IMG/VR virus record: IMGVR_UViG_3300025108_000024
Coordinates: 28,306 to 92,305 of that record
DNA from: a virus
Length of the DNA: 64,000 bases
Direction: 5' to 3' (one strand)
This document shows, in pieces, positions 1,913 through 53,219 of this stretch. The notes under the pieces were generated by a model. The model was not told the origin of the DNA and searched no databases. It was given only the letters and a program-made list of their open reading frames with translations. Made by a program: the position numbers and the translations under genes. Position 1 is the stretch's first letter. Each line of letters begins with the position of its first letter.

Positions 1913-4900
1913 TTATTTTTTATTTCTCTTATTGATAAGTGCTTGATTAGATTCAAATGTTTCCATAAGTCTAACGTTTTGCATGAAATCAGCAACTTGC
2001 TGTATGTCAGCTCTTGTAACAGGTTGACCATATCTATCTCCATATGATTGTGGATAAACAACTTTTCTTGTTCCTAAAGTATTTGTTACAAAACCATTTA
2101 CAGCTTTAGGATCATCAGGAGCATATATCTGTTCTTCTATTGAAGTTACATAACTATCTCCGTCTTTCCAAATCTTAAATGAACCAGCTTCTGGTACGTT
2201 TCTATAATAAGAACCTGTAAAGTCTATATCTGTATCAACTGAATTATATGTATATTGACTTTGTCCATACCCACTTACATCTTGATCTGAGTTGACCAAT
2301 ACTGTTACAGTTGAATATAATTCTTTTTCTTGCTTTCCAATTATACCTGTACCTGGTGCATTATCTCCAACTAACCCTACAGATTTATTCATGGCTGTTT
2401 GATCAAATCTAATCACATAAGCACCTTGGCTTTGATCACCACCTTGAGCACCATATGCATCAATATATGTTACAGTAAACAAACCTTTCTTATCATCAGC
2501 CGCTATACCTGCACTTAAATCCATCATACTTTGATTGACCATTTTTTGTGCTTTACTACCAGTTGCTTCTATTCTTTCATTTAAATCATCTTGATCAACA
2601 GTCTTAACATCACCAGCTAAAAACTGAACTCCTCCAGCATTTAATTGACTAATGAAATCACTTAAAACAACTCTCTGTTCTCCCGGCATATTAGCAAGTG
2701 TTTTAGGAGATACTAAACCTGTAGTATATGTATTAGACATAAAAGCAGTTTCATCTGTCATAAGATTAGCTGAACCACCTCTCATCAAAGTATGAATACC
2801 ATATGCTTGATAACCAGGTTCTACATCTTGAGGATTATCTCCTGCTCTTGATTGATCATAATTATAGAATCCATTTAAGGTTCTATTCATTGCATTGTAT
2901 TGTCTTGAGTATGCTTCCTTAGCCGATTCTGTAGCCCACTTTTCATCAAAGTACTGTTTACCAGTAGCATATGCACCACCTCCCATACCTGGACCATAAT
3001 AGATATTAGAATTTGCATACTCCATTCTATAAAAGGTTTCATCTATACGTGTTTTATCTGTAAATTTCTTTTCACGTGCTTTTTCAACTGCTATCTTTAC
3101 ATATTCATCTTCAGTAAGAACTTTATTATCCTTTATTATACTAGGAGCACCATACTCCTCAATGTCTTCAATAATCTCTGGTACACCTGTTGTATTTTTA
3201 AAATTTAACAACTTAGAATAATTCTCAGAAGCTCTTTTATTAAATTCCTTTTCTGCATTTACTATTCTACTTGCTAAACCAGATGTAGTATTTATTTGAT
3301 TTTTTATAACTAACGCATCTCTTGTAGATATACCAGGTGCATATTTTTTTCTATCTTCTTCTGTTGCAAAATTGTTTGATATGGTTTCATACTTAGAATT
3401 TAAAAAAGCTTGATTCTCTGGCTTTCTTAATATTTCTCTTGCTTCATTAATAGTATAAGCTTTGTCACCATTTGGACCCGGTATGTTAATTGTTTCAGGT
3501 TTTCCATTCATACCAAGAGATGCTTGATCTTTTTGATGAAAATATAATAAAGTTTCTATTTGATCATTTCTTACTTTATCTTGAGCATCTCCTAACTCTG
3601 CATTTTTTTGTGCGTAAATATCAGTATCTGCATTTGGATTACCATCTGCATCTGTATTAAATGCTACATTACCTGATAAGCCACCACTAAAATTATCTAA
3701 TGCTTTTTTTATTGCTGGATCAATATAAGCACCAGCTGCCTTTAATTCATTTATTCTATTTAATCTATTCTCCTCTGCTTTAAACGCATTATTCTGAGCA
3801 TCTCTAATCATATTAAGTTTATGTCTTTCTATATCTCTTTGAAAGTCATTTACCATAGGAACTCTTTTGGCTCCTTGCATAGAGTAAGATTTAGCAGCTG
3901 CTCTTAAATCATCACTAATATTCCAATTCATTAAAGAACCATAGGCTCTGTTTAAAAGACTTTCTTCATCCGTAGTAAGTTGTCCCATCTTTTCAACCAA
4001 CTCAGAATTAGCAGTAGCTTGTTCTTCTACTTCTTGTCTCTCAGTCATCACATCTAAATAAGAGTCCTTTTCTATTTGTGTTAGATTTTCTTCTCCTACT
4101 TCTTTTATTCTATTTTCATGCTTTTGTCTAAGCTCATCTAATTCTTTACTCTTTCCTTCAAACTGAAGTTGTAGTTCGTTAGCTTTAAAAGTAATATCAG
4201 AAATTGTGTTCTCAGCCCAAGCAACTCTACCTTCATTGATTGTAGAATATTGCCCAGCTTCAACTCCTCTTTCTGCATGTCTTCTTGCTTGTACGTAACT
4301 ATCTGCAGCATATGCTTGTTGTACTTTACCATTTGTTGCTAAAGCTCTTTTAACTCTATCATATGAAGCATCATATATTAAACTACCATTTGTTTGTTTA
4401 ATAATAAACTTCTTGTCTTTTGTAAAATAAAAATCTTCTGCCTCAATACCTGATTCCTTAAGATAATCTAATGCCATATCATACAGGTTGGCATTAGCTA
4501 CATACTTAGGCATTGGTTTATTCATAGCTTCCTCTGGGCTTGCATTAATAAAATCATCCATTTGATAATTCATATAATCAATACCTGTCTGCCAATATTG
4601 TTGACTAGCTTTTAAATTTGGAGCATCCAATAAACTTTGAGCCCTGCCTAATTCTCCTTTATACTTAGCAGTTCTATATATGTCTTGTTGGATTAGTTTG
4701 TTTTCTATAAATGGATTAAACACACCTTTTGCTGCATCTACATTTTTACCTATAGATAAATCCATATCTGCAATTTTATTAATAGAGGGCACAAGCTTAT
4801 CAGCAAATTGATCTCTCTGTGCTTTAGTGTCTTCTCTACTCATATCGGCATAAATCACACTGCCATATAAATCATTTAATTGCTTGTAGTTGGTATCATA

Positions 4901-24977: not shown

Positions 24978-25838
24978 TTATCTTTTTCCTTCTATATTAC
25001 ACATTGCAACCCCAAATTGAGTACCATCTTCCAAAGTTACTGTAATACACATAGCTCTACTATCAACAACCCATCCTGTTATTGCTGCTGGTTTTTGACC
25101 GTCATAACTTACTTCAAATCCACCACCATCTGCACCAGCGGGTCCTTGTGGCCCTTGAGGTCCAGTTGCTCCAGTTGCTCCTTTAGTACCGTTACTACCA
25201 GCAGGCCCTTGTGGCCCAGCAGGTCCTTGAGGTCCTGTATTACCCGTATTTCCTTTTGCTCCGGCTGCACCTGTGTCTCCCTTTGCACCTGCAGGACCCC
25301 TTGCTCCAGCAGCTCCGGCTGCACCTGTATCTCCTTTTGACCCGGCTGGTCCTCTTGCACCAGCTGCACCATCTGATCCAGCTGCTCCAGCGGGTCCCCT
25401 AGCTCCAGCTGCACCGTCTGCCCCAGCTGTTCCTGCCGGACCTCTTGAACCTGCATCACCTTTATCACCTTTGGCTCCAGCTGCTCCATCTGTCCCAGCT
25501 GGCCCTCTAGCTCCAGCATCTCCGGTATCTCCTTTGTCACCCTTAGCACCTCTTGCTCCAGCATCACCAGTATCCCCTTTGTCTCCTTTAGCTCCAGCAT
25601 CTCCTTTAGCTCCAGCATCTCCTTTAGCTCCCCTGTCTCCTTTGGCACCGTCTGATCCGTTTGTACCTGCATCTCCTTTGGCACCTGCATCTCCTTTGGC
25701 ACCTGCGTCACCTTTGTCTCCTTTAGGTCCTTGGCCGCCAGTTGCACCTACAAACTGTGGAAAGTTTGCTGTGTTAAAATTACCAGTGTGTAATACTTCA
25801 TTACCACCTACTGTTGTTCCTTGTTTTAAATCTGCCAT
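24978..25838 (-). CDS. Collagen-like fibre protein, 286 residues
   Basis: After a 33-residue attachment segment (QGTTVGGNEVLHTGNFNTAN, common in tail fibre proteins) come about 65 almost uninterrupted Gly-X-Y triplets, roughly residues 34-237, rich in GAKGDAGAKGD and GARGPAGAAG. A short C-terminal beta domain (about 240-286: GWVVDSRAMCITVTLEDGTQ) probably nucleates the trimer. It should form a collagen triple helix as a flexible fibre. Lys-Gly-Asp triplets stabilise such helices without hydroxyproline. The strong open frames on the opposite strand here are by-products of the repeat. Confidence 0.85.
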   Translation of the reverse strand: MADLKQGTTVGGNEVLHTGNFNTANFPQFVGATGGQGPKGDKGDAGAKGDAGAKGDAGTNGSDGAKGDRGAKGDAGAKGDAGAKGDKGDTGDAGARGAKGDKGDTGDAGARGPAGTDGAAGAKGDKGDAGSRGPAGTAGADGAAGARGPAGAAGSDGAAGARGPAGSKGDTGAAGAAGARGPAGAKGDTGAAGAKGNTGNTGPQGPAGPQGPAGSNGTKGATGATGPQGPQGPAGADGGGFEVSYDGQKPAAITGWVVDSRAMCITVTLEDGTQFGVAMCNIEGKR

Positions 25839-27797: not shown

Positions 27798-29300
27798 TTA
27801 TACTGTAAATCTCATAGTTACTCCATCAAAAGAAATACCAGATCCGGCAATTCCTAAAGTAGTACCACTAAAAGTTAAGTTTGATTCTGCTTGTACAGTT
27901 GATCCACCTGTTGCTGTAATTACTCTATTATTAGCATTTGATGTTACAGCTAAAGTATCACCAGTATCTCCCTTATCTCCCTTATCACCTTTGTCTCCTT
28001 TGTCTCCTTTTGATCCATTTGTTCCGTCTGTGCCATTTGTCCCGTCTATTCCGTCTTTTCCGTTTGTTCCGTTTGTTCCAGGGTCACCTTTATCTCCCTT
28101 ATCTCCTTTTGATCCGTTAGTCCCATCAGTTCCATTAGTTCCAGGATCACCCTTGTCTCCTTTATCCCCTTTAGCTCCATCAGTTCCATTTGTACCATCG
28201 GTACCATTAGTTCCATCTGCTCCAGGTAATCCACGTGAACCGTCTGATCCATCTGTACCATTCGTTCCTGGATCTCCTTTATCACCTTTTGCACCTTTAC
28301 CTCCATCAACACCGTCAGTACCATTTGTACCTGGATCACCTTTGTCCCCCTTGGGTCCTCTTGCCCCATCTGTTCCATCAGTTCCGTCAGTCCCATCAGT
28401 TCCTGCGTCACCCTTATCACCTTTATCACCTTTAAGTCCTCTAGGTCCAGTTTGCCAAGATGTTAAACCACTATCAGCATTATAGTCTGTATCATTTGGT
28501 AATATTATAACACCCGGCATCCACTTTAAAGATCCTGTATCTGCATTATGTTGAGCTATCAGTAACCATTCTTCATCAGGAAGAACTGAAGCTCCATTGT
28601 AATCAAGAACTTTAAGGCTTCCTGTATTATATGCTTTACCTGCTTGATGTACCCAATATACACCGTGCCAACTTGGAACTTGAATACCTGTATTAGCTGG
28701 AATATCTATGTGTCCATTAGTACTAAAGTTTTTACTTACAGGTATACATATAATTCTACTTGACCATTTTAATGTAGACCCAGTCCAAGTAACAGTCCCA
28801 CCACCACTCATTGAGTAGTTAGCATGTGCATTCTCAATTATAGGACTAAGATCTTGATCTACCCTTGCACCAGCTTGAATACCATCTAATTTTGTTTTTA
28901 ATGCTGCTGTAAAGTTTTTGGTAGTTAGGCCACCATCACCTACGGAATAAGTAGTATCTTTATCTACAGTTGTAACGCTAGATGTTGTAGCATCTGCATG
29001 TGTGAAAGTTATAGTATCATTATCTACAGATGCTGATACAATAGGATTTTTAGTCTTATCAAGTTTGTCACCAATCTGACTAGATATTGTTGTAGCAAAG
29101 TTTGGATCATCACCAAGTGCAGCAGCCAATTCATTTAATGTATCTAATGTATTAGGAGCTGAATCAATTAAATTTGTTATAGAAGTTGTTACAAATTCTT
29201 TTGTAGCAACCGTTTTACCTAAGTGAGTCATTACATCCGTAGATGCAATTTGTTCTCCGCTTATGTTTAATTCTCTTTTAGATGGTGTAGTTGTTGCCAT
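27798..29300 (-). CDS. Collagen-like tail fibre protein, 500 residues
   Basis: N-terminal part (residues 1-90) has the helical NLIDSAPNTLDTLNELAAAL segment found in many phage fibres before a coiled coil. A beta region follows with TKNFTAALKTKLDGIQAGA and TGIQVPSWHGVYWVHQAGK. Residues about 290-450 are Gly-X-Y repeats dominated by GTNGTDG, GDKGDKGDPG and GPRGLKG. The C-terminal 50 residues (VTSNANNRVITATGGSTVQA) form a small beta cap. It overlaps the upstream gene by one base. Presumably a trimeric fibre shaft bearing a tip. Confidence 0.8.
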   Translation of the reverse strand: MATTTPSKRELNISGEQIASTDVMTHLGKTVATKEFVTTSITNLIDSAPNTLDTLNELAAALGDDPNFATTISSQIGDKLDKTKNPIVSASVDNDTITFTHADATTSSVTTVDKDTTYSVGDGGLTTKNFTAALKTKLDGIQAGARVDQDLSPIIENAHANYSMSGGGTVTWTGSTLKWSSRIICIPVSKNFSTNGHIDIPANTGIQVPSWHGVYWVHQAGKAYNTGSLKVLDYNGASVLPDEEWLLIAQHNADTGSLKWMPGVIILPNDTDYNADSGLTSWQTGPRGLKGDKGDKGDAGTDGTDGTDGTDGARGPKGDKGDPGTNGTDGVDGGKGAKGDKGDPGTNGTDGSDGSRGLPGADGTNGTDGTNGTDGAKGDKGDKGDPGTNGTDGTNGSKGDKGDKGDPGTNGTNGKDGIDGTNGTDGTNGSKGDKGDKGDKGDKGDTGDTLAVTSNANNRVITATGGSTVQAESNLTFSGTTLGIAGSGISFDGVTMRFTV

Positions 29301-38724: not shown

Positions 38725-39942
38725 TTATGGATTAGTTTGTTGATCAATAGCAGTTTCTCTTACTAGTGGATTACCAGATTGATTAGCTGCATCAACTAAA
38801 GCATCAAGTAAACCTTCCACTGCAGCTTGAGTTGCCGTATCATCACATTTTACAAACACCTCATATACATATTGATCATTATCAAATACACTTGTTGCAT
38901 TGTTCAAACGTGGAATGCTGTGTTGTACATAATAAGTCTTGTATAGAGCAGAACGATCTACTGCAGAAATTACTTCTTCAGAACCTTCAATCTCACGCAT
39001 ACGTATTGCATCTACATTTCCTTGGTGGAATGGTGCTTGTCCGTAAGATTCAGTTAATAGAATATTTCTAAGTACACCTTCTCCAGAAGTTTGTTGCATT
39101 GTACCTGCTGTACTTGTTACAGTACCACAGTCATTACATGGATTTCCTGTTTCATCTAGCATTGAAGCTACTAATTGAACTGGTTCTTTTCCGTGATAAT
39201 CACGTGTATCAAAAGAACAGTCTCCAAACTTAGTATCTACATAAGCACCTTGAAAACTAATTGCTGCAGTTACTTCGTCACCTACTGGATCTGTTGATGG
39301 AGTATAAGTTCCATCTACTATTTCAGCAAATGTATATGATGTAGCTACACCAGCTACTGTTACTACAATTCCACCTTCTTTAATGAATGGAGCAACAATA
39401 GGATCTGCAATTATCATTCTACCAATTTTTGCTAACGCTACTGCTGGATCAAGAAATTCTTGTCCTTCAATACAACATAAACCTGGATCACTACCTTCTC
39501 CGATAGAATCTCCAATAGCATATGCATTACGGTTTAAGAAACGTAAAGCTGGTGCACCTTTTACGTCTAAACGTAACATTAGGTTTTCACCACATGGATG
39601 ACATTTTGATCCTACTGCAACTGTTACACTTGCTGGAGTTGCATTAATACATTCTGATTCCCAGATTCTTGTTAAATACTTAGGATTGATTCCTTTTGAT
39701 TTAACTGATTCTGCATAACCACCATGATTGCCGTTTCCACCAATAGTGTCACTTGCGTGTAAAGATCCTTGTACTAAGTAAGCCAAACCAGGTACTGCTA
39801 AAGCACCAGTGTTTGCTTTCCAAGTTTTTCCATCAACTAGTGCAAGTTGTCCTGCAGCTAAGTCTTGGGTTTTTGTTCCATTAGCAGCACTTGCGTCAAC
39901 TGCTAAAAAGCTTTTATAAAAAGCATGATTAAAATAAGCCAT
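38725..39942 (-). CDS. Probable abundant structural protein, 405 residues
   Basis: The protein has its own promoter motif, a leader and a strong terminator, as expected of a highly made virion protein. It starts AYFNHAFYKSFLAVDASAAN then LAAGQLALVDGKTW, a pattern seen in major tail or surface proteins of other Bacteroidetes phages. The middle and end are mixed alpha/beta, with Cys motifs CHPCGENLMLRL, LCCIEGQEFL and NPCNDCGTVTS that could bind metal or crosslink. The end (YYVQHSIPRLNNATSVFDND, then VFVKCDDTATQAAVEGLLDA) is alpha/beta. Capsid decoration, head fibre or tail-tube role is open; short-tailed crAss-like phages have no long tube. Confidence 0.6.
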   Translation of the reverse strand: MAYFNHAFYKSFLAVDASAANGTKTQDLAAGQLALVDGKTWKANTGALAVPGLAYLVQGSLHASDTIGGNGNHGGYAESVKSKGINPKYLTRIWESECINATPASVTVAVGSKCHPCGENLMLRLDVKGAPALRFLNRNAYAIGDSIGEGSDPGLCCIEGQEFLDPAVALAKIGRMIIADPIVAPFIKEGGIVVTVAGVATSYTFAEIVDGTYTPSTDPVGDEVTAAISFQGAYVDTKFGDCSFDTRDYHGKEPVQLVASMLDETGNPCNDCGTVTSTAGTMQQTSGEGVLRNILLTESYGQAPFHQGNVDAIRMREIEGSEEVISAVDRSALYKTYYVQHSIPRLNNATSVFDNDQYVYEVFVKCDDTATQAAVEGLLDALVDAANQSGNPLVRETAIDQQTNP

Positions 39943-40023: not shown

Positions 40024-40503
40024 TTAGCTAAGGAATAATAGTTTATACTTAGCTGAATTAATTTCATCTTTTATTAAATCTAGATTACTTACTATTTCAG
40101 AATGAGGCATACAGTATTGTAATTCATCTATCTGAGATGTAAGCATTCTCATATAATCTAAAGCACCATCTACATTTGTTAAAGTTGCAGGTGCTTTATC
40201 TGGATACATTAATATTACTTCACAAGCACCTTGATATCCTTCTGCTATAGTATCTACTAAATCAGGTAATGAATCATATAATTCATTTAATGCTTTATGT
40301 TGTGCAAAAGAACCATCACCTGTTACTTGTAAATGTAATTTATGAAAGCTTGTACGTGCATTCATTATTTCAACAACTAATGATGCTGTCTTTGCATCTA
40401 CTTCTTTCATTTCATTAGATCTAGTACCCATAACTTTTTTGGTTGATGGTCTAGATAGTTTACCCGTAGCTTTGGCTTTTAAAGGTCTTTTATACGTATC
40501 CAT
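40024..40503 (-). CDS. Dps-like ferritin-fold protein, 159 residues
   Basis: Residues 38-159 are a helical bundle. The segment SFHKLHLQVTGDGSFAQHKA then LNELYDSLPDLVDTIAEGYQ matches the Dps ferroxidase region (LHWNV.G..F..LH......DEIAE). H57, H69, D84 and E88 have the Dps spacing 12, 15 and 4, equal to H51, H63, D78 and E82 of E. coli Dps; the D67 position is Asn. The basic first 35 residues (KRPLKAKATGKLSRPSTKK) could bind DNA, as in Dps. I recall a related family (DUF5856) in Bacteroidetes phages. The gene overlaps the ring-type gene by one base, so it is in the virion operon. Whether it binds iron, or is only a structural helix bundle, is unknown. Confidence 0.7.
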   Translation of the reverse strand: MDTYKRPLKAKATGKLSRPSTKKVMGTRSNEMKEVDAKTASLVVEIMNARTSFHKLHLQVTGDGSFAQHKALNELYDSLPDLVDTIAEGYQGACEVILMYPDKAPATLTNVDGALDYMRMLTSQIDELQYCMPHSEIVSNLDLIKDEINSAKYKLLFLS

Positions 40504-41204
40504 TAATTATTTCTTTCTGCTGTTTGTTGATTAGTTTGATACTGATTAAAGTTTTCTATGTCACCTGCAATTAAAGATGCAGTTTCATCTATTAATACTT
40601 CTACTATATCATCTTTAAACTCAGATTCAACTTGAGTTCCAGTTGCAGTACCATCAAATGGATTTTGACAACCTAGTATTTCTATACGTCTTGGTTGTCT
40701 ATAGTAAGTTAAATCAACATCTGTAATAGTAAAATCTCTTCTATATACTCTTATATCATTACCTATCCAAGTACAGAATGTTTCTCCCCATTCATAATCT
40801 GGTCTTTTTAAAGGATCTCTTAAAATTAAATCTACATTAGCTTCTTCTGCTAAGTAAACTGTCATTGATCTAGGATCAGGACAACAATCACTTGTAGCAA
40901 AAGCAGATATCCTTTTAAATTCCATATAGTTATCTGGTATAGCTGTTGATTCAAAATAATCATTTGTAGAAAAACCAGGTAAGTTTACCTCTGTTAAAAG
41001 TATTTGAAGATCATCTATTCTTCTCTTAGACATCTCATCACCTTCACGGTACATATTATTACCGTGAAGCTGACGTCTTACCCATTCAACTTGAGCTTTA
41101 TTAAATGCCTCTACAATTTGCCAACATTCAATGTTATCAAAATCATTGCTAGAAAGCTTATTAAGCCTTTGTTTTATTTTAATTTGTAGAGTTGAGTTAT
41201 TCAT
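40503..41204 (-). CDS. Portal-adaptor (ring-type) structural protein, 233 residues
   Basis: Starts STLQIKIKQRLNKLSSND then IECWQIVEAFNKAQVEWVRR, a helical opening typical of head-tail connectors, followed by a beta region (NDIRVYRRDFTITDVDLTYY) and PRRIEILGCQNPFDG, and a helical C-terminus (DIVEVLIDETASLIAGDIEN). This alpha-beta-alpha pattern is found in portal-attached adaptors of podoviruses, including crAss-like phages. It overlaps the Dps-like gene by one base. Position between the capsid-associated gene and the Dps-like gene supports a head-completion role. The exact ring cannot be told. Confidence 0.65.
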   Translation of the reverse strand: MNNSTLQIKIKQRLNKLSSNDFDNIECWQIVEAFNKAQVEWVRRQLHGNNMYREGDEMSKRRIDDLQILLTEVNLPGFSTNDYFESTAIPDNYMEFKRISAFATSDCCPDPRSMTVYLAEEANVDLILRDPLKRPDYEWGETFCTWIGNDIRVYRRDFTITDVDLTYYRQPRRIEILGCQNPFDGTATGTQVESEFKDDIVEVLIDETASLIAGDIENFNQYQTNQQTAERNN

Positions 41205-41215
41205 TATATGTTAAG

Positions 41216-42232
41216 TTATGAGTTCCAATAAGGTTCTACTTTAGATAGTAAACTTAACAATGTATCTTCATTACCTGGATCTTTAAGATATTCAATTACT
41301 TCACCAGATCTTTTACCTAGTTTTTCTGAACTATCCATTGACTCAATCCAACCTGAAGATTTAGGAACTAAGAATCTGTAGTACATAGCATCTTTTACTA
41401 ATGCTCTGATTTTAAGATCTTCCATAGAACTATTAGATGCTTCTAAAAATTGCTTAGATGCTCTTTTTCTATTTCCTTCTGTTCCTTCACCGTTAATGTA
41501 CATATCCATATTTTCGTACATTATGTCATTTGGTGTAGACTTTGTGTATTGAACACTTTCTAAATCTACACACTTTGCAACATACATCAACTTAGTTGTA
41601 TCAGTATCATACATATTTTGTAAAGCAACTAAAGCTTTATTTCTCAGCTTAGTATACTCTGTTCTTTCACTAATGGTTTCTTCTAGTTGGTCTAAATAAA
41701 ACTTTGGTGGATTTACAGCTTTCTTAGCTTCTTTCAATGATTTACCTACCATTGAAAATCCACCTGCATTTATAGCATATATCTTTATAAGATCATATGG
41801 ATCTTTTACAGGATCTAAGAATACTGGATCATTACCACATCTTAGGCTTATTCTTGACCAGAACTTATCATTGTCTGGTTTTAATAATGTTACTTTATTC
41901 CAAAAATCTTTATCTTCAAGATCTATGACATTAGACGCTAATTCAGCTTCTAATTGAGCAACTACTTTTCTTATCTCTTTTACTTTTACTTCTTTATCTC
42001 CTGGAGGTAACATCTTTACATCTGGTGCAAATTCATTTAGTCCAGTAACATATCTTTTAACTCCATTTAGTTCTAGACATGCTAAAGATTCTTCATGCCA
42101 TACTCCTTCATGAAGTGCCATACCATATTGTTCAAGCCCCATGTTTTGTCTGCTTGGGTTAAAGTACGGTCTTACAGCAATAGCATTATTTTTGCCAAGC
42201 TGATATTTTTCTACAATAGTGTAATCACTCAT
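41216..42232 (-). CDS. Capsid-associated protein, 338 residues
   Basis: No enzyme motif recognised. The N-terminal third is beta (AVRPYFNPSRQNMGLEQYG, LACLELNGVKRYVTGLNEFA), then a predominantly helical region with RKVVAQLEAELASNV, PKFYLDQLEETISERTEYTK and KFLEAS-type charged helices. Proteins of this length directly after the major capsid gene are frequent in crAss-like phages, where they may be auxiliary capsid or connector parts. An upstream inverted repeat could control it. There is a terminator between it and the major capsid gene, so it is transcribed separately. Confidence 0.5.
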   Translation of the reverse strand: MSDYTIVEKYQLGKNNAIAVRPYFNPSRQNMGLEQYGMALHEGVWHEESLACLELNGVKRYVTGLNEFAPDVKMLPPGDKEVKVKEIRKVVAQLEAELASNVIDLEDKDFWNKVTLLKPDNDKFWSRISLRCGNDPVFLDPVKDPYDLIKIYAINAGGFSMVGKSLKEAKKAVNPPKFYLDQLEETISERTEYTKLRNKALVALQNMYDTDTTKLMYVAKCVDLESVQYTKSTPNDIMYENMDMYINGEGTEGNRKRASKQFLEASNSSMEDLKIRALVKDAMYYRFLVPKSSGWIESMDSSEKLGKRSGEVIEYLKDPGNEDTLLSLLSKVEPYWNS

Positions 42233-42425: not shown

Positions 42426-44045
42426 TTAGAATGAACCTCCTGTTACAGGATTTCTCATTACAATTTTTAATACTTTGGTTGGATCCTTCACCCAGATAGC
42501 TGGCATGGTTTGAGTCATATAAACTCTATAACCATTAAAGTTACCTGTAGAAGCAAAACCTTGAGTTCTTCCCATGTAGTCCATAGTACCATTTTGGTAG
42601 AACCACTTAAGTTGATTATCCCAAGATAACTTCAATAAGTGAATGTTATCATTTCCATTTTCTGTCACATCAAAGATAATGAAGCTATAAGAGCTTAAAG
42701 GACGTCCATCAATTAATGGATTCTCTACATCATTTGTGTGAAGATTATCAAATGCAGGGTTAAGTACAAACTTAACGTTAGCAAGGAAAGGAATAGTAAA
42801 GCTTGTGTAAGCAAAACCGAAATCTAAATCCATTCCTGAACCTTTTACTGCACCAATATCACTAGCGTTTTGAACTAATCCAGAACCATATACTTCATCA
42901 GCAATAGCTTTGTTGATTAATTGCATTCCACCAATACCTGTTTGTACAACAAGTTGTCTACTTGGGTCTGGCCCTTTGAACTCAACTTTACCTTGATAGA
43001 AGTTGTATAGCTCAGACTTGAACATATCAAGTGAGAAAGCAGACTTGTTATATACTCTTTTGAAAGAGTTATCTAACTGAGACCAAAGACCTACAGATAA
43101 TCTAATATCATCTGGTCCATCTTGTTTTACTTTTCCACCTTTACCCCACATTAGGTAAGTTTCAATATCATTTGCAATCTTGCTCAAGTGAGCAGCTTCC
43201 ATGTTTGTAACGAAAGTTCTAGACAAACGTCCATCTTCAAATGCTTCTCTAGCACCTGCTTTTCCCATTCCAGCTACCAACTCATCAATTGATGATACAG
43301 AAGGATTGTTTGGATCTTGGTCAAAGTTTCTCCAGATCTCTGTTACAGGTACAGTACCATCAGCATTCAAACCACCTTTAATCATAAGATCAGCACGGCT
43401 AGAAATAGAATAGTGTACATGTGCCTCAGCTCCACCAACAAAGTTGTAGAACTCACGGAATCCAGAACCAGTTTCAATATCAGAGAATCTTTCACCATAT
43501 TCACCTCTTGCAGAACCTTTTCTAAAGAATTTAGTTCCTGGAGCTAAGTATGCGTTATCTAATGATGCTGCACTGTTATTGTTTACAAGTTGTACAGTGT
43601 AGATGTATCCATCACCTGCAGGGATAATATCATCTGCAGTAATGTACAATTCTAAACCGTTGTACTTGTCATAAGTAATGATATCACCATGACCAAAGCT
43701 TCTTTTTGAAACTTTAATCTTGAATGTAGTACCATCTACACCTTTTGTGTCATTTGCTGGCTCAATGTCAGCTACAACAAAAGGTAAATCTTGAGCGATT
43801 GGAGTTTGCCATTTATACTCCCCACGCGCGTTGTCTACCATGATTGTGTTCTTTCCACCAAAAGAAGCCATTTGATACAAAGGCATTTCTACCTTTTGGG
43901 TCATTGCCCAAAGATCAACTGGTCCCATATCCATAGGCTCAGAAGATCCAAGCATTTGGGTTAGGTGATAAGAATCAACATGAGAGCTCGCTTTGTAAGC
44001 AGTATCTCTTAGGAAAATTCCATTGTTTAATACAGGAGTTGCCAT
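42426..44045 (-). CDS. Major capsid protein, 539 residues
   Basis: By position (portal, scaffold-like, this gene) and size this is the HK97-fold major capsid protein. The N-terminal arm (ATPVLNNGIFLRDTAYKAS) is followed by SSEPMDMGPVDLWAMTQKVE and a beta/helix core with a long spine-type helix near 255-290 (REAFEDGRLSRTFVTNMEAA). The C-terminal part includes LANVKFVLNPAFDNLH and DVTENGNDNIHLLKLSWDNQ. Codon choice and G+C are a little higher than in the neighbours, as often in strongly expressed genes. Its leader contains repeated AACAATTA units. A strong terminator follows. Confidence 0.8.
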   Translation of the reverse strand: MATPVLNNGIFLRDTAYKASSHVDSYHLTQMLGSSEPMDMGPVDLWAMTQKVEMPLYQMASFGGKNTIMVDNARGEYKWQTPIAQDLPFVVADIEPANDTKGVDGTTFKIKVSKRSFGHGDIITYDKYNGLELYITADDIIPAGDGYIYTVQLVNNNSAASLDNAYLAPGTKFFRKGSARGEYGERFSDIETGSGFREFYNFVGGAEAHVHYSISSRADLMIKGGLNADGTVPVTEIWRNFDQDPNNPSVSSIDELVAGMGKAGAREAFEDGRLSRTFVTNMEAAHLSKIANDIETYLMWGKGGKVKQDGPDDIRLSVGLWSQLDNSFKRVYNKSAFSLDMFKSELYNFYQGKVEFKGPDPSRQLVVQTGIGGMQLINKAIADEVYGSGLVQNASDIGAVKGSGMDLDFGFAYTSFTIPFLANVKFVLNPAFDNLHTNDVENPLIDGRPLSSYSFIIFDVTENGNDNIHLLKLSWDNQLKWFYQNGTMDYMGRTQGFASTGNFNGYRVYMTQTMPAIWVKDPTKVLKIVMRNPVTGGSF

Positions 44046-45525: not shown

Positions 45526-48291
45526 TTATTTTTTTGGTTTGTTATCCTTCTTATTGGACTTAACATCATATTTATTTTTATTCTCTCTTGCAATTTGTAA
45601 TTGCTTATCTGCAATTTCTCTTTGAGTAGAAAGCTTTTCTCTATCAATGTTTAATTTATCTGTAGTAAATGAGTTTTTAACTGAGGCTTGTTCTCTCTTA
45701 AAGTTCATTTCCTCACGTTTTTCATTATTCCTCCTAATATCTTTCATGCTATCCTGGAAGTCAGATACTTGATTTTGATTTATATCACTTTGTGCACCAT
45801 ATCCAGCAGATCTAATCTCAGCAACTTGGAGTTTGTTTTGACGTTCTTTGTCATTTTCACTTATCTCCATTTGTATTTTTGCTTGAGCCTCTTCTGCTTG
45901 AGCTTTTAATTGTTGCTCTTGCATTTGTCTCTGTTGCTGCATTTCTTGTTCTCTTTGTGATTGAGTTTTCATTTCAGCTTCCTTCAAGATATCAGATACT
46001 TCAGCAATAGACTCAGCTTTAATAATATTACCTAAGTCATAAATACTAGCACCACTTGTGTTATTTTGTATTGCAAGTTGTTTTAATTGATCCAGTATAG
46101 ATCTATGATTTGTTTTAGTTGTTGCAAAAACATTAAAGTCTCTCAATAAAAGATCAGTACCGTTTATTTGAAAGTTTACTTTTTCTGCCTCAGAGCTTAT
46201 ATAAGAGAGTCTAACGCTTGGGTTAGTACTATAGTAGTGTTGAGCTAGATCTGTTCTCATTTGATGTACTCTAGGCATTAGGTGATCTGAATGCTGTGTA
46301 AAGTAGACTTCAGTTTGAGCATATGATTGATTCATTGCTTGTGTAACACCTGTTGCTGTTTGTTGAGCTATAGGAGCACCCAGTCTTTGTGGATTAATAC
46401 CTATTGCATCAAATGCTTGTTGTTTAAAATAATTAGCTAATTGAATACGTGACATTAATCTACCAGTCTGCTCCATGTTAAGAGTTTGGTAATGATTAAA
46501 GTTTGTAGCATTTTCTGTATTAGTAATTGAAGTATCTAAAGGTAGCATTTGGAAATCTTTCATTGCTACATAGGCTTTTGCATAATTGCCCTTACCCCAA
46601 TCTTCACCCATAGAATGACGTGGTAAAGCATTTTGATCAAACATAATAACAGTACCTAGTTCATCTACTAGTATATCTGCTATTTGATTATTAACCATAT
46701 TATAACCTACTTGATAAGCTTTCATTAAATCAACCAATGAAGTAGATCTTGTATTTCTATCAGAGAATACTCTCCCTTCTACAGGTAGTTTACATCCATA
46801 TAATGAACTATCACCTTTAAACTGAAATGGTATTCTACCGGGTTTCTTTCTGTTAATACCTAAATAAATAGGATTCATATCTTTTGATGAATCAGCTTTC
46901 CAAAAACCTGGGAAATTAGCACCAATTTTGACACCACCCCAAACTTCATTAATCCAAATCCAATCTATATGCTCTCCCTGTACTAAAGTATTTTTGCTTT
47001 TGTTTTTAAATATAGTAGAATCATATATTGGTTTTTCTGTAACTTTAAATGTTTCATCAATGATCTCTTGCATTACTTGACCATCTTCTGTTATCTTAGT
47101 TAAATGACCAACTTTACGTTGTGTTTTCCAATACGTAGTTGTAACCCTCATTAAAGATCCCTCACCCCAGTTAGGTAAATCATCTCCTTCATTTAAAATA
47201 GAACCTATTATATCACCACCACTTGTTGAGTTGCTAGCCCAGTTACTCATAAACTGTCTGTAGCCTAAACTAGGAGCGTTTGTATTCCACTCGTGAGATT
47301 TAGTAGCATCATAATAAGTACCATCATTTTGATATCCGGATACTTGGTATTTAGCTGATTTAGCAGGATATATTTTTTGTAAGGATGTTAATTGCTTTTC
47401 ATCCATTAAGTAACCATACTTATCTATCACATCTGCAATAGTCATTAAATCAACTTTACCTGCATAGTTAGATTGAGATATATATCTTGCATCTGGTGAC
47501 TTCTGATAAAATGTTAATACCGGATTCCATAACTCTACATCATAGTCATCTTCCATCATTCTAAAATGCCAGAATTCTCTATCTGTAATAAGCATGTCTC
47601 TAAAAGCTCTTTCTTCCAGTTCTTGCATATTAAATCTCTCAGTATCAACATTCAATTGATGAGTGGCCCATTCTTCTACTAATGATCTATAATCCTTTGT
47701 AAAAAAATCTTGTATCTCTGGTAATGATTTTAATGCTTCAGGGTTCATTTTTTTCTGAGCTTCTTCTGATTCAGGATCCATTCCCATTTGAATCATGTTC
47801 ATCATCATTTTGTTTGAAGCATCTCTTAAAAGATTTTCTTCAATCATAGCTCTTTTCTGCTCAAGCATTTCATTATAAGAAAGATCATCAACAGCTCTGA
47901 ATTGCACTCTGCTTAATCTTTTAGAAAATTCTCCAGATAGTACGTTTATAACGTTTGGAATAATAGGATAAAATTTTAATTCCAGTGCTGACTCATCTTC
48001 TTGAGTAAGTGTATCTAGTAAATCTTTATATTCATTGTCATCTTCAACTATATAGTCTGTTTTATCTATAATTCCTTTAGCAAGCTTATAGTTTTTCAAT
48101 AATTTTCTAGCATTCTGTTTTAGAAACTGCATACCTTGCACTTCTAACCAATCTAAATTCCAAGCAGCCCAATCATCATCTTTCTTTTTAGCCGGCAAGA
48201 ATTGTATAGGTTGTGTCAAACTAGAAGAAGCACCAGAGCCTGATTCAGCTTTAGCACCATTCTTCAATTGCATTGCGTTATATACTTTCAT
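45526..48291 (-). CDS. Portal protein, 921 residues (crAss-like)
   Basis: N-terminal part carries AAWNLDWLEVQGMQFLKQNA and RKLLKNYKLAKGIIDKTDYI, an opening I link to crAss-like portals. The body (about 90-760) mixes helices and strands; LAQHYYSTNPSVRLSYISSE and NINPQ-type segments (AFDAIGINPQRLGAPIAQ) are typical of the wing and stem. The C-terminal 160 residues are a long Gln/Glu/Lys-rich coiled coil (EQEMQQQRQMQEQQLKAQAE), ending with KKDNKPKK, much like the inner barrel extension of some portals. It lies 2 bases downstream of terL. As the ring at the capsid vertex it passes DNA in and out. Confidence 0.82.
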   Translation of the reverse strand: MKVYNAMQLKNGAKAESGSGASSSLTQPIQFLPAKKKDDDWAAWNLDWLEVQGMQFLKQNARKLLKNYKLAKGIIDKTDYIVEDDNEYKDLLDTLTQEDESALELKFYPIIPNVINVLSGEFSKRLSRVQFRAVDDLSYNEMLEQKRAMIEENLLRDASNKMMMNMIQMGMDPESEEAQKKMNPEALKSLPEIQDFFTKDYRSLVEEWATHQLNVDTERFNMQELEERAFRDMLITDREFWHFRMMEDDYDVELWNPVLTFYQKSPDARYISQSNYAGKVDLMTIADVIDKYGYLMDEKQLTSLQKIYPAKSAKYQVSGYQNDGTYYDATKSHEWNTNAPSLGYRQFMSNWASNSTSGGDIIGSILNEGDDLPNWGEGSLMRVTTTYWKTQRKVGHLTKITEDGQVMQEIIDETFKVTEKPIYDSTIFKNKSKNTLVQGEHIDWIWINEVWGGVKIGANFPGFWKADSSKDMNPIYLGINRKKPGRIPFQFKGDSSLYGCKLPVEGRVFSDRNTRSTSLVDLMKAYQVGYNMVNNQIADILVDELGTVIMFDQNALPRHSMGEDWGKGNYAKAYVAMKDFQMLPLDTSITNTENATNFNHYQTLNMEQTGRLMSRIQLANYFKQQAFDAIGINPQRLGAPIAQQTATGVTQAMNQSYAQTEVYFTQHSDHLMPRVHQMRTDLAQHYYSTNPSVRLSYISSEAEKVNFQINGTDLLLRDFNVFATTKTNHRSILDQLKQLAIQNNTSGASIYDLGNIIKAESIAEVSDILKEAEMKTQSQREQEMQQQRQMQEQQLKAQAEEAQAKIQMEISENDKERQNKLQVAEIRSAGYGAQSDINQNQVSDFQDSMKDIRRNNEKREEMNFKREQASVKNSFTTDKLNIDREKLSTQREIADKQLQIARENKNKYDVKSNKKDNKPKK

Positions 48292-48293
48292 AT

Positions 48294-50483
48294 TTATCTA
48301 AAATTTTTATAGGCAGATCTTTTGATCTTTTTCCCGCCAATACTAGTTTTTCCCCTTGCTAAATTTTTAAACGGACTATACTTTAATTTATACAAATTTT
48401 TTGAATTTACCAAAGAATTGTCTGATTCACTTTCTCTTCTTTTCAAATAACCACGGTTTGATTGTTGAATTCTTACAAAAGCAACTAATGCTCCAAAAGC
48501 AACCAACCTATCCACGTTTAAACCAGGGTAGTAAGCAAGCATTTCTTTTAAAAGCATAGGATCTGGTATTCTTTCAATACCTAATGTTGTTGAAATGGTG
48601 TTTCCATCTTGGTCTGTTTCTTCATCTATTTCTTCTCTTAAGAATTCTATAGCATAAGATATTAAATGACTCTTGAATAAAGTACCTGTATTTTTCCATC
48701 CGTATTCTTGATATACAGTTCTGTTAGAACCTAGATCTTTCAGAAAAAGAATTTGTTGTTTTGGCACAAGGTATTTTTGTTTTTTCTTAGCAATCATGTG
48801 CTGAATAAAAAGAGATATGTTATTCTCAACAAGAGTCCATGCGTTAAACCATTCAATAATTAATTCTAACTGACCATGTGTTTTATTTATATCATCATAT
48901 CTACCACACCAAGCAGCTACAATCTTATCTTTTTCTATAAAATGTTCTAAGCCAGCCTGAGTTTCTCTAGAAACTTCCATTGCATTCTTATAAACAAAGA
49001 TACTACATAAGGAATCAGATGTTGTTGTTTTACCTTCTGACACGGGGTCAATAGAAGCATAGTAGGTTCCAAATTGTGGATTTGCAATAGGTCTTTCCCA
49101 AACAACTAAACAACCTGTTTTATCTTGTGCTTTTTTATTAGCAGGAAATTCTGATATAGGTAGCTTATTAGATCTTTTAGCTTCTATACCATCTTGTGTT
49201 CTTTCTAACTCAATGTGTTCATATGCATATTCTTTATCTTCAATTTTCTTCATTTGCTTTGAAATGATACCTTGAGGGAATATAGATTCTTTTCTATAAG
49301 CAAATGCTTCTGCTATGTTAGTTGGTTTTTGAGATATACGTAACTGATATTGTTCTGGATTTAAATCAGCCTTCCATTTTTTTCTTTCTAATGTTATTGC
49401 ATTGAGTGCTTCCTCTATTTTAGAGTTACCGTATGCATCAATATAAGGCGGCATAGACCACTGTTCTGGAATAAACAGACCTGCCATATTAATTGTACCA
49501 TCAGCGTCCATTAGATTTGTTTCTACAGCATATATATCATTTGCTTTAGGATTGAGTATCATTTCCTTTAATGGCTCACATTGATCCAAATCACCAACAG
49601 AACCTGCTGCTATAAACATACCCGTTGTAACCATACCTGAAGACATTGCAGGACGCAAGTACTCATAGGTCTGCATCATCTTTGGTGCTATACCTGCTTC
49701 TTCATGAAAAAAGTAACTTGTTGGTCCACCTACACCAGTTGTTGCATTTTTTTCAAATGAGGCACCTTGTATTTTAGATTTTAAACCTCTAGATGTTTTT
49801 CTATTACCTACTTTGACTTCTATCTGCTGTTGCCATAGTAAAACCTTTTCTGGATTACTGGGCCTATACCACGCAGTGTGCTCATTTAAAAATGTTTTAT
49901 ACTCATCTAAAAACTTCCAGGAACCTTTATCATTTATGTAATCTTTTAGTGATGCACCAATCTTACAAGTACTACCTTCTTCAAACCAGTATGTATTAAT
50001 TATTTTTCCCATGTGAAAATAGGAAGAAGCAATTTGACGTTTTTTTAGTATTGCTGAGTGTTGATAGTTAAGTTCAGCTAACAGTTCATATAATGCCATA
50101 TGATATTGAGCATCTCTTACTTTAGCAAAACCATACTTTTTTTCTTCTTTGTCATATATAGGTAAAAAGTTTAACCACATATAATAATCTCTTGTTAAAT
50201 ACCAAGTGTAAGGACCTTCTTTATAGATGACCCCTACACGGCATTTATCTTTTTGATCATTCCAATATGTTATAAAGTCTTTTGATCTGAAAGGAGCTGA
50301 ACAATAAAAACCATCTTTGTTGAAGTTTCTGGCTTCTTTGTTAAACAGTAAAGCTGATTTAGTAAAGTTATATAGACCGGGTTCTTTAAATATAGATTCT
50401 ATAAATTCATTAAATGAATCTCTAGTTTCAAATTTAGTCACTGTCCAGTTACCATTTTCAAACGTTGGGACTTCTTTAAACAT
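48294..50483 (-). CDS. terL: Terminase large subunit, 729 residues
   Basis: The DNA-packaging motor. The ATPase half has a diverged Walker A-type segment (SAILKKRQIASSYFHMGK at about 143-160) and a Walker B-type SYFFHEEAG at 256-264 with acidic E261/E262. The RNase H-fold nuclease half shows YYASIDPVSEGK (D479) and TTTSDSLCSIFVYK (D490), with VDRLVAFGALVAF near 685. This layout and N-terminal region (SAPFRSKDFITYWNDQKDK) are those of crAss-like terminases. It overlaps the GroES-like gene by one base and the portal follows after 2 bases, so they are one operon. Confidence 0.88.
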   Translation of the reverse strand: MFKEVPTFENGNWTVTKFETRDSFNEFIESIFKEPGLYNFTKSALLFNKEARNFNKDGFYCSAPFRSKDFITYWNDQKDKCRVGVIYKEGPYTWYLTRDYYMWLNFLPIYDKEEKKYGFAKVRDAQYHMALYELLAELNYQHSAILKKRQIASSYFHMGKIINTYWFEEGSTCKIGASLKDYINDKGSWKFLDEYKTFLNEHTAWYRPSNPEKVLLWQQQIEVKVGNRKTSRGLKSKIQGASFEKNATTGVGGPTSYFFHEEAGIAPKMMQTYEYLRPAMSSGMVTTGMFIAAGSVGDLDQCEPLKEMILNPKANDIYAVETNLMDADGTINMAGLFIPEQWSMPPYIDAYGNSKIEEALNAITLERKKWKADLNPEQYQLRISQKPTNIAEAFAYRKESIFPQGIISKQMKKIEDKEYAYEHIELERTQDGIEAKRSNKLPISEFPANKKAQDKTGCLVVWERPIANPQFGTYYASIDPVSEGKTTTSDSLCSIFVYKNAMEVSRETQAGLEHFIEKDKIVAAWCGRYDDINKTHGQLELIIEWFNAWTLVENNISLFIQHMIAKKKQKYLVPKQQILFLKDLGSNRTVYQEYGWKNTGTLFKSHLISYAIEFLREEIDEETDQDGNTISTTLGIERIPDPMLLKEMLAYYPGLNVDRLVAFGALVAFVRIQQSNRGYLKRRESESDNSLVNSKNLYKLKYSPFKNLARGKTSIGGKKIKRSAYKNFR

Positions 50484-50767
50484 TACTCTATTTCTTTAAT
50501 TATAGCAAACACGTCTCCTGCATTAATTAATAAATGTTTTGATCCATTGTGTTCTACCTCTTGAGGAACAGAATATTCTGCATATTGCACTAAATCATCT
50601 ACAACAATTTCTTGTACTTCTGCACCAACTCCAACAACAAAACCTTTGTATTCTTTCTCTAATGCAGAATCAGGAATTATTATATTAGTACCTGGTACAG
50701 TTCTAACTGCCTCCTTTGGTCTTATTAGAACTTTTTTTCCAACTGGTACAATCTTTGTTTTTTTCAT
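50483..50767 (-). CDS. GroES-like co-chaperonin, 94 residues
   Basis: Full-length Cpn10 fold by sequence: VGKKVLIRPKEA (GroES V.....RPL..RV type strand), a mobile-loop-like TVPGTNIIIPDSALEKEYKG, then GFVVGVGAEVQEIVVDDLVQ, YAEYSVPQEVEHNGSKHLLI and a terminal GDVFAIIKE. The IIIP of the mobile loop, which contacts GroEL, is preserved and the DSA.EK..KG stretch is very like Bacteroidetes GroES. Such phage proteins (as T4 gp31) help GroEL fold the capsid protein. It overlaps terL by one base, so it is made together with the packaging and capsid genes. The host's own GroES could be the source. Confidence 0.8.
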   Translation of the reverse strand: MKKTKIVPVGKKVLIRPKEAVRTVPGTNIIIPDSALEKEYKGFVVGVGAEVQEIVVDDLVQYAEYSVPQEVEHNGSKHLLINAGDVFAIIKEIE

Positions 50768-52557: not shown

Positions 52558-52864
52558 CTGTTATATCAGTTAAAAGTTCTTCTTGATCTTCTGTAATTAA
52601 TGCTTCCCACTTATCTTGAGGACAGCTAGAAGATAAAGACCTTGTTTTAAATTTTAAACTACAACCACAGTCAGAACAGCACGGTTGTGTACCAGGAGCA
52701 AAACAGTTAACTCCTTGATTATCAAGTTCTTTGCAATTTTTACAAATATTAAATCTTTCTTTTGCTACTTTTTCTACTTCTTCTTTTGTAAAAATAGTAT
52801 TCAATACACCTTCAGTAATCTTATCAAAACTTCTAAGTGCGTTTATTAGATTTTTTATTTTCAT
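52547..52864 (-). CDS. Zinc-ribbon protein, 105 residues
   Basis: CKNCKELDNQGVNCFAPGTQ followed by PCCSDCGCSLKFKTRSLSSS and CPQDKW has six to eight Cys in Cys-X2-Cys pairs, a compact zinc ribbon. I recall the same CCSDCGCSLKFKTRS stretch in many Bacteroidetes phages. The N-terminal half is helical and basic (IKNLINALRSFDKITEGVLN). It may bind nucleic acid or another protein; its partner is unknown. It overlaps the IHF-like gene's 3' end by 32 bases. Confidence 0.72.
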   Translation of the reverse strand: MKIKNLINALRSFDKITEGVLNTIFTKEEVEKVAKERFNICKNCKELDNQGVNCFAPGTQPCCSDCGCSLKFKTRSLSSSCPQDKWEALITEDQEELLTDITDED

Positions 52865-53219
52865 TTCTTTTTTGCTTAAACTCTTTTTTTTCTTTCTCTA
52901 AACCTTCTATTAACTCTTTAGCATTTTGTAGCATATCTAATTTTTCTACAACACCTATATGTTTTTCATAACCTTTATATGTGTTTTTAACTAAATTACC
53001 TAAGATGCTTTTATTCTTCTTAATTGTTTTATTAAGTATTTTTTTTCTTAAATGAAAAGTACCTAATCCATATACTGTAATACTTGGATATGTTATATTA
53101 GATAAATTTTTTCTAAGCTTAGCATAATAAAAAGTTATAAAGTCTTCCACCACTTCTGGATGAACACCTACTTCTTCTGCTATTCCTTTTTTGAATTCTT
53201 TATGACTCTTGGGTCTCAA
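52833..53219 (-). CDS. IHF/HU-like DNA-bending protein, 128 residues
   Basis: KGIAEEVGVHPEVVEDFITF then YYAKLRKNLSNITYPSITVY and GLGTFHLRKKIL reproduce the HU/IHF pattern: two helices, then the G.GTF.. strands. The DNA-binding arm is shorter than in HU, and a Lys-rich C-terminus (KNKSILGNLVKNTYKGYEKH, then KEKKEFKQKRNENKKS) is longer. crAss-like phages have an IHF gene beside lysis genes. It probably bends DNA in replication or packaging. Overlaps its neighbours on both sides (20 and 32 bases). Confidence 0.75.
   Translation of the reverse strand: MRPKSHKEFKKGIAEEVGVHPEVVEDFITFYYAKLRKNLSNITYPSITVYGLGTFHLRKKILNKTIKKNKSILGNLVKNTYKGYEKHIGVVEKLDMLQNAKELIEGLEKEKKEFKQKRNENKKSNKRT

Follow-up and report, generated by a model that had tools for sequence, protein, structure and literature searches.

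A Dps-like mini-ferritin gene behind the tail ring gene of crAss-like phages

In the literature accessible to searching, a ferritin-like protein of the virion has been reported once, in Vi01-like phages: gp217 of Sajous1 was found in virions with 10 spectra and named 'ferritin' by its authors, who caution about debris (PMC10892097). Searching the literature for DUF5856 or for a described virion Dps returned nothing besides that paper, and DUF5856 (phrog_858) is carried in Pfam as a phage family of unknown function. In the virion proteome of LIMEstone1, ORF78 is represented by 3 peptides (28% coverage; PMC3296691). ORF78 is a DUF5856 member (8.8e-29) and Sajous1 gp217 is, its sequence having been checked, a close homologue of it; spectra counts in virions are low for both. 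The g280 product of the jumbo phage phiR1-37 bears the annotation 'phage structural protein', and the structural annotations of this phage probably trace to its virion proteome (PMC4848604).

Here we consider a member of this family encoded in 64,000 bases of viral DNA (the window), which span positions 28306-92305 of a virus record 92,305 bases long. A preliminary description had regarded a Dps fold in a virion as unusual; given the published Sajous1 'ferritin', it is not unprecedented. What is new is a crass-like branch of the family with a Dps-length loop and a mostly basic tail, the fixed coupling of the Dps-like gene to the ring gene, a site that is invariant across the family, and the linking of published virion proteomes to DUF5856.

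The locus and its neighbours

We assign the source virus to the crAss-like phages because its major capsid protein (MCP) matches Pfam Crass_capsid and its portal protein matches phrog_6547. The features of the block, all on the minus strand, are as follows.

45526 to 48291, minus strand: portal protein (phrog_6547, 6.4e-95)
42426 to 44045, minus strand: major capsid protein, Crass_capsid (Pfam, 5.6e-32)
41216 to 42232, minus strand: 338-aa gene in the position of the auxiliary capsid protein; weak profile match to phi17:2 gp65 (global 84%, local 57%)
40503 to 41204, minus strand: tail ring protein gene, 233 aa, ending in TAATG; profile alignment to crass rings
40024 to 40503, minus strand: Dps-like mini-ferritin gene, DUF5856 / phrog_858, 159 aa (PF19174 2.7e-14, phrog_858 2.2e-18)
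38725 to 39942, minus strand: 405-aa gene about 80 bases past the Dps-like gene; fold not recognised

The Dps-like gene runs from an ATG start at 40503 down to a TAA stop at 40024. Its overlap by one base with a ring-type gene, proposed earlier, is borne out: in TAATG, the last base of the ring gene's stop codon is the first base of the Dps-like start. The identity of the upstream gene as a crass ring protein comes from hhalign, which aligns the family of the 233-aa gene over its length with phi17:2 gp64 and the ring protein of csAssE-Sib (99.4%, E 5e-21). On the other side, the 405-aa gene gave no confident match in a fold search, and its match to phi17:2 gp63 is weak and local only. It is conserved, with several invariant cysteines, and can be as long as 518 aa in relatives; its structure is predicted with fair confidence, with no recognisable fold.

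Further afield, a GroES-like co-chaperonin (Cpn10, 1.9e-12) is encoded at window positions 50483-50767 (minus strand), just upstream of the 729-aa gene that precedes the portal gene; in DSL-LC05 and cta1H496, too, GroES-type genes lie near the Dps-like gene. Collagen-like proteins with Gly-x-y repeats at 24978-25838 and 27798-29300 (both minus strand) likely mark the fibre region. The product of 52833-53219 (minus strand) looks IHF/HU-like by eye, but Pfam does not confirm this.

Fold, metal site and tail

The 159-aa protein matches DUF5856 (PF19174) over residues 65-155 with 54.4 bits, exceeding the curated Pfam cut-off of 34.6 bits. Of the two kinds of family named in the preliminary description, this one is therefore recovered while the other is not: Pfam Ferritin (PF00210) is not listed for the protein at E up to 1, nor does this model hit anything in five records of relative phages. 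Comparison with known structures nonetheless leads to Dps. A single-sequence search of the PDB returns MrgA (E 0.0037) followed by HP-NAP and other Dps proteins, and when a profile of 32 relatives is used instead, HP-NAP reaches 1.1e-4 and proteins of Dps type take all of the first 14 places. AlphaFold2, run with relatives, gives a model with a mean pLDDT of 83, mostly about 90-97 in the helical core, and helices at residues 30-59, 65-89, 91-99, 111-131 and 135-158 that follow the Dps order A, B, BC, C, D, so that the predicted structure has both the four-helix bundle and the short BC helix of Dps. In a Foldseek comparison with the PDB, Dps proteins fill almost all of the top 50 places, led by 2chp, 6gcm and 1dps (probability 1.00), with probabilities mostly of 1.00, TM up to about 0.65 and E-values of 0.015 at best. 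The Dps-like fold suggested from sequence is thus well supported by the predicted structure, making this protein a divergent Dps-like mini-ferritin, and the same probably applies to the DUF5856 family as a whole.

Two parts of the protein deserve separate consideration.

40240 to 40344, minus strand: metal-site stretch, residues 54-88 (H54, H57, H69, N73, D84, E88), from profile alignment and invariance
40414 to 40503, minus strand: basic N-terminal tail, residues 1-30 (1-24 predicted disordered), from a pLDDT of about 40 and composition

Profile alignment pairs H57, H69, N73, D84 and E88 with H51, H63, D67, D78 and E82 of E. coli Dps, and the spacing of H57, H69, D84 and E88 (12, 15, 4) is exactly that of the bacterial protein, as had been noticed from the 159 residues at the outset. 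The claim that the ferroxidase site is intact holds only in part: four of the five ligands are present at Dps spacing, but the fifth, D67 in E. coli, is replaced by N73 in this protein and by N or G throughout the crass-like group, so that ferroxidase activity of the E. coli kind is not to be taken for granted. In addition, L takes the place of E. coli W52, the tryptophan next to the first of the ligand histidines, and both substitutions may weaken or alter the metal chemistry. The ligand positions, on helices A and B of the predicted monomer, fit an inter-subunit site.

How much weight should be given to the spacing? Shuffling the 159-aa protein reproduces the H/H/D/E pattern in 48 of 200,000 trials, so that the pattern by itself is only moderately unlikely; taken together with homology it is not chance. 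H54, H57, H69, D84 and E88 are invariant in all 67 distinct sequences of the crass-like group and, along with G92, unchanged in 47 of 47 sequences that include T-even-like, Ackermannviridae, jumbo-phage and podophage relatives. A chance motif is ruled out by this invariance and the homology. Because ligand-type residues stay constant at about 30% identity, the site points to metal binding.

The tail is basic in the present protein, as described before, with 9 K/R against 1 D/E in residues 1-30. This does not extend to the most divergent members, which have no conserved basic tail (one, L049, has 4 K/R and 6 D/E), and the tail is missing from relatives in other phages.

Gene order across phages

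Two scans of viral contigs yielded 87 distinct IMG/VR loci. The ring gene lies upstream of the Dps-like gene in every one of them and is directly adjacent in 86, mostly with a gap of -1 to +5 bases, making the two the most tightly spaced gene pair of a block whose order recurs with small variations (MCP, 338 aa, ring, Dps-like, 405-500 aa). In the single exception (L113), a glycosyltransferase-like gene of 459 aa (2601-3980 of that locus) is found between them; its end, in turn, shares one base with the start of the Dps-like gene. Near-full-length records each contain one DUF5856 member above the family cut-off, and dN/dS of the Dps-like gene (0.13-0.25) indicates purifying selection.

The gene does not belong to the Crassvirales core: phi17:2, csAssE-Sib and the Leptolyngbya phage Lbo-JY46 have the order MCP, auxiliary, ring, 630-660 aa without it, and no DUF5856 member was found elsewhere in these three genomes. 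The simplest reading is that one lineage gained the gene and then retained it in the virion block; alternatively, the three phages may have lost it. Recent capture of a host Dps was rejected, bacterial and archaeal species genomes having given one relative, on a short MAG contig, in a scan that was queried with conserved peptides of the crass-like group only and that remote relatives could escape.

Outside the crass-like group, the family gene directly follows the portal gene in the podophages ctEw122 and DSL-LC05. T-even-like relatives adjoin rI, outside the structural genes, so that virion membership is not certain for the entire family. Fold matches in BFVD include Dps-type proteins of gut crass-like phages (cr106_1, cr108_1). 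Separately, a Dps-like fold is matched within some long phage proteins that go by the name of prohead protease (333 and 432 aa) or Dps (498-622 aa), a hint that other phages may have Dps domains joined to head-assembly proteins.

Probable virion location, proposed role and known systems

Where does the protein act, and to what end? Since relatives were detected by mass spectrometry in the virions of other phages, we regard a virion location as probable for this one, too. The explanation to which we lean, with a little more belief than doubt, is a phage-specific Dps-like mini-ferritin that is carried in the virion, binds or oxidises iron and shields DNA. It would be translated in step with the tail ring protein, presumably late, and most probably be built into or packaged in the particle. 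Subunits would pair as in Dps, H57 and H69 of one and D84 and E88 of its partner forming a metal site between them, at which iron is the most likely substrate. Iron-driven Fenton damage would thereby be kept off packaged or newly injected DNA, onto which the basic tail may anchor the protein in those close relatives that have one. What our computations support is confined to the fold, the conservation of the ligands and the gene coupling; the role, be it DNA protection or iron carriage, we infer.

One could also imagine a protein that is made late and confined in its action to the host cell, where it would remove iron and oxidants so that the infected cell and the replicating DNA survive, with ring adjacency reflecting nothing but late expression. 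Dps-like enzymes of Gratiaviridae phages have been interpreted in this way (PMC8008677), and the position of the T-even-like relatives is in keeping with it. If late expression were all that mattered, however, the fixed position and near-zero gap at 86 of 87 loci would be hard to account for, as would the portal-adjacent genes of the two podophages and the LIMEstone1 and Sajous1 detections. We consider this scenario rather unlikely.

Less probable still is a purely structural role, with the protein serving at the neck or ring as a helical-bundle adaptor or plug whose metal site does no more than stabilise a subunit interface. Coupling to the ring gene would suit such a role, and Dps dodecamers might be set beside the 12-subunit crass rings (PMC10172136). 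Yet related crass phages with an otherwise identical gene order build virions without a Dps-like gene, and the 50 best PDB fold matches include no crassvirus chain. Dps dodecamers, moreover, are cages and not rings. That virion iron held by the protein serves as bait for host iron-uptake receptors (the 'Ferrojan horse'), as put forward for the homologue gp217, is very improbable, given that Salmonella deficient in TonB or FeoB was infected by Sajous1-type phages no less well than the wild type (PMC10892097) and that nothing indicates exposure of the protein on the particle.

Returning to the virion-carried mini-ferritin, a wider proposition can be entertained, though we hold it more tentatively: that unrelated tailed phages (the crass-like group, Ackermannviridae, the jumbo phage phiR1-37 and some podophages) carry a Dps-like metalloprotein in their particles, which would make these virions iron carriers or self-protected against Fenton damage, and that virions of the crass-like group contain it as a standard part, produced in step with the tail ring. 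A widespread Pfam family of unknown function here gains a functional hypothesis with named residues and a tie to virions in several phage groups. If a mini-ferritin is indeed present in virions, measurement can directly address the proposal of iron-carrying phages, and the particles of this crass-like group would hold a component for which the solved phicrAss001 particle offers no described counterpart.

Compared with bacterial Dps (E. coli Dps, MrgA, HP-NAP), the phage protein shares the predicted fold, the helix order and four of five ligands at identical spacing; it differs in having N or G for the acidic D67/E position and L for W52, and it is missed by the Pfam Ferritin model and almost confined to phages. 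Encapsulins are HK97-fold shells with ferritin-like cargo, and a phage head putatively enclosing the protein would resemble them, except that it is filled with DNA. Gratiaviridae gut phages, for which Bacteroides hosts are predicted, likewise have a Dps-like enzyme; their Dps and their manganese catalase are described as acting during infection and have no tie to a ring gene (PMC8008677). Sajous1 gp217 and LIMEstone1 ORF78 (Ackermannviridae) share family and ligands, and the mass-spectrometric virion detection is theirs; at 117 aa they have no tail and a loop three residues shorter, and their genes lie away from capsid or ring genes. With DUF5856 at large, including T-even-like rI.-1, the present protein is linked by a match above the Pfam cut-off and has H54, H57, H69, D84, E88 and G92 in common, whereas the crass-like members are set apart by an H-to-H distance of 12, the Dps loop length, where many others have 9, and by the addition of a mostly basic tail and a fixed place behind the ring gene.
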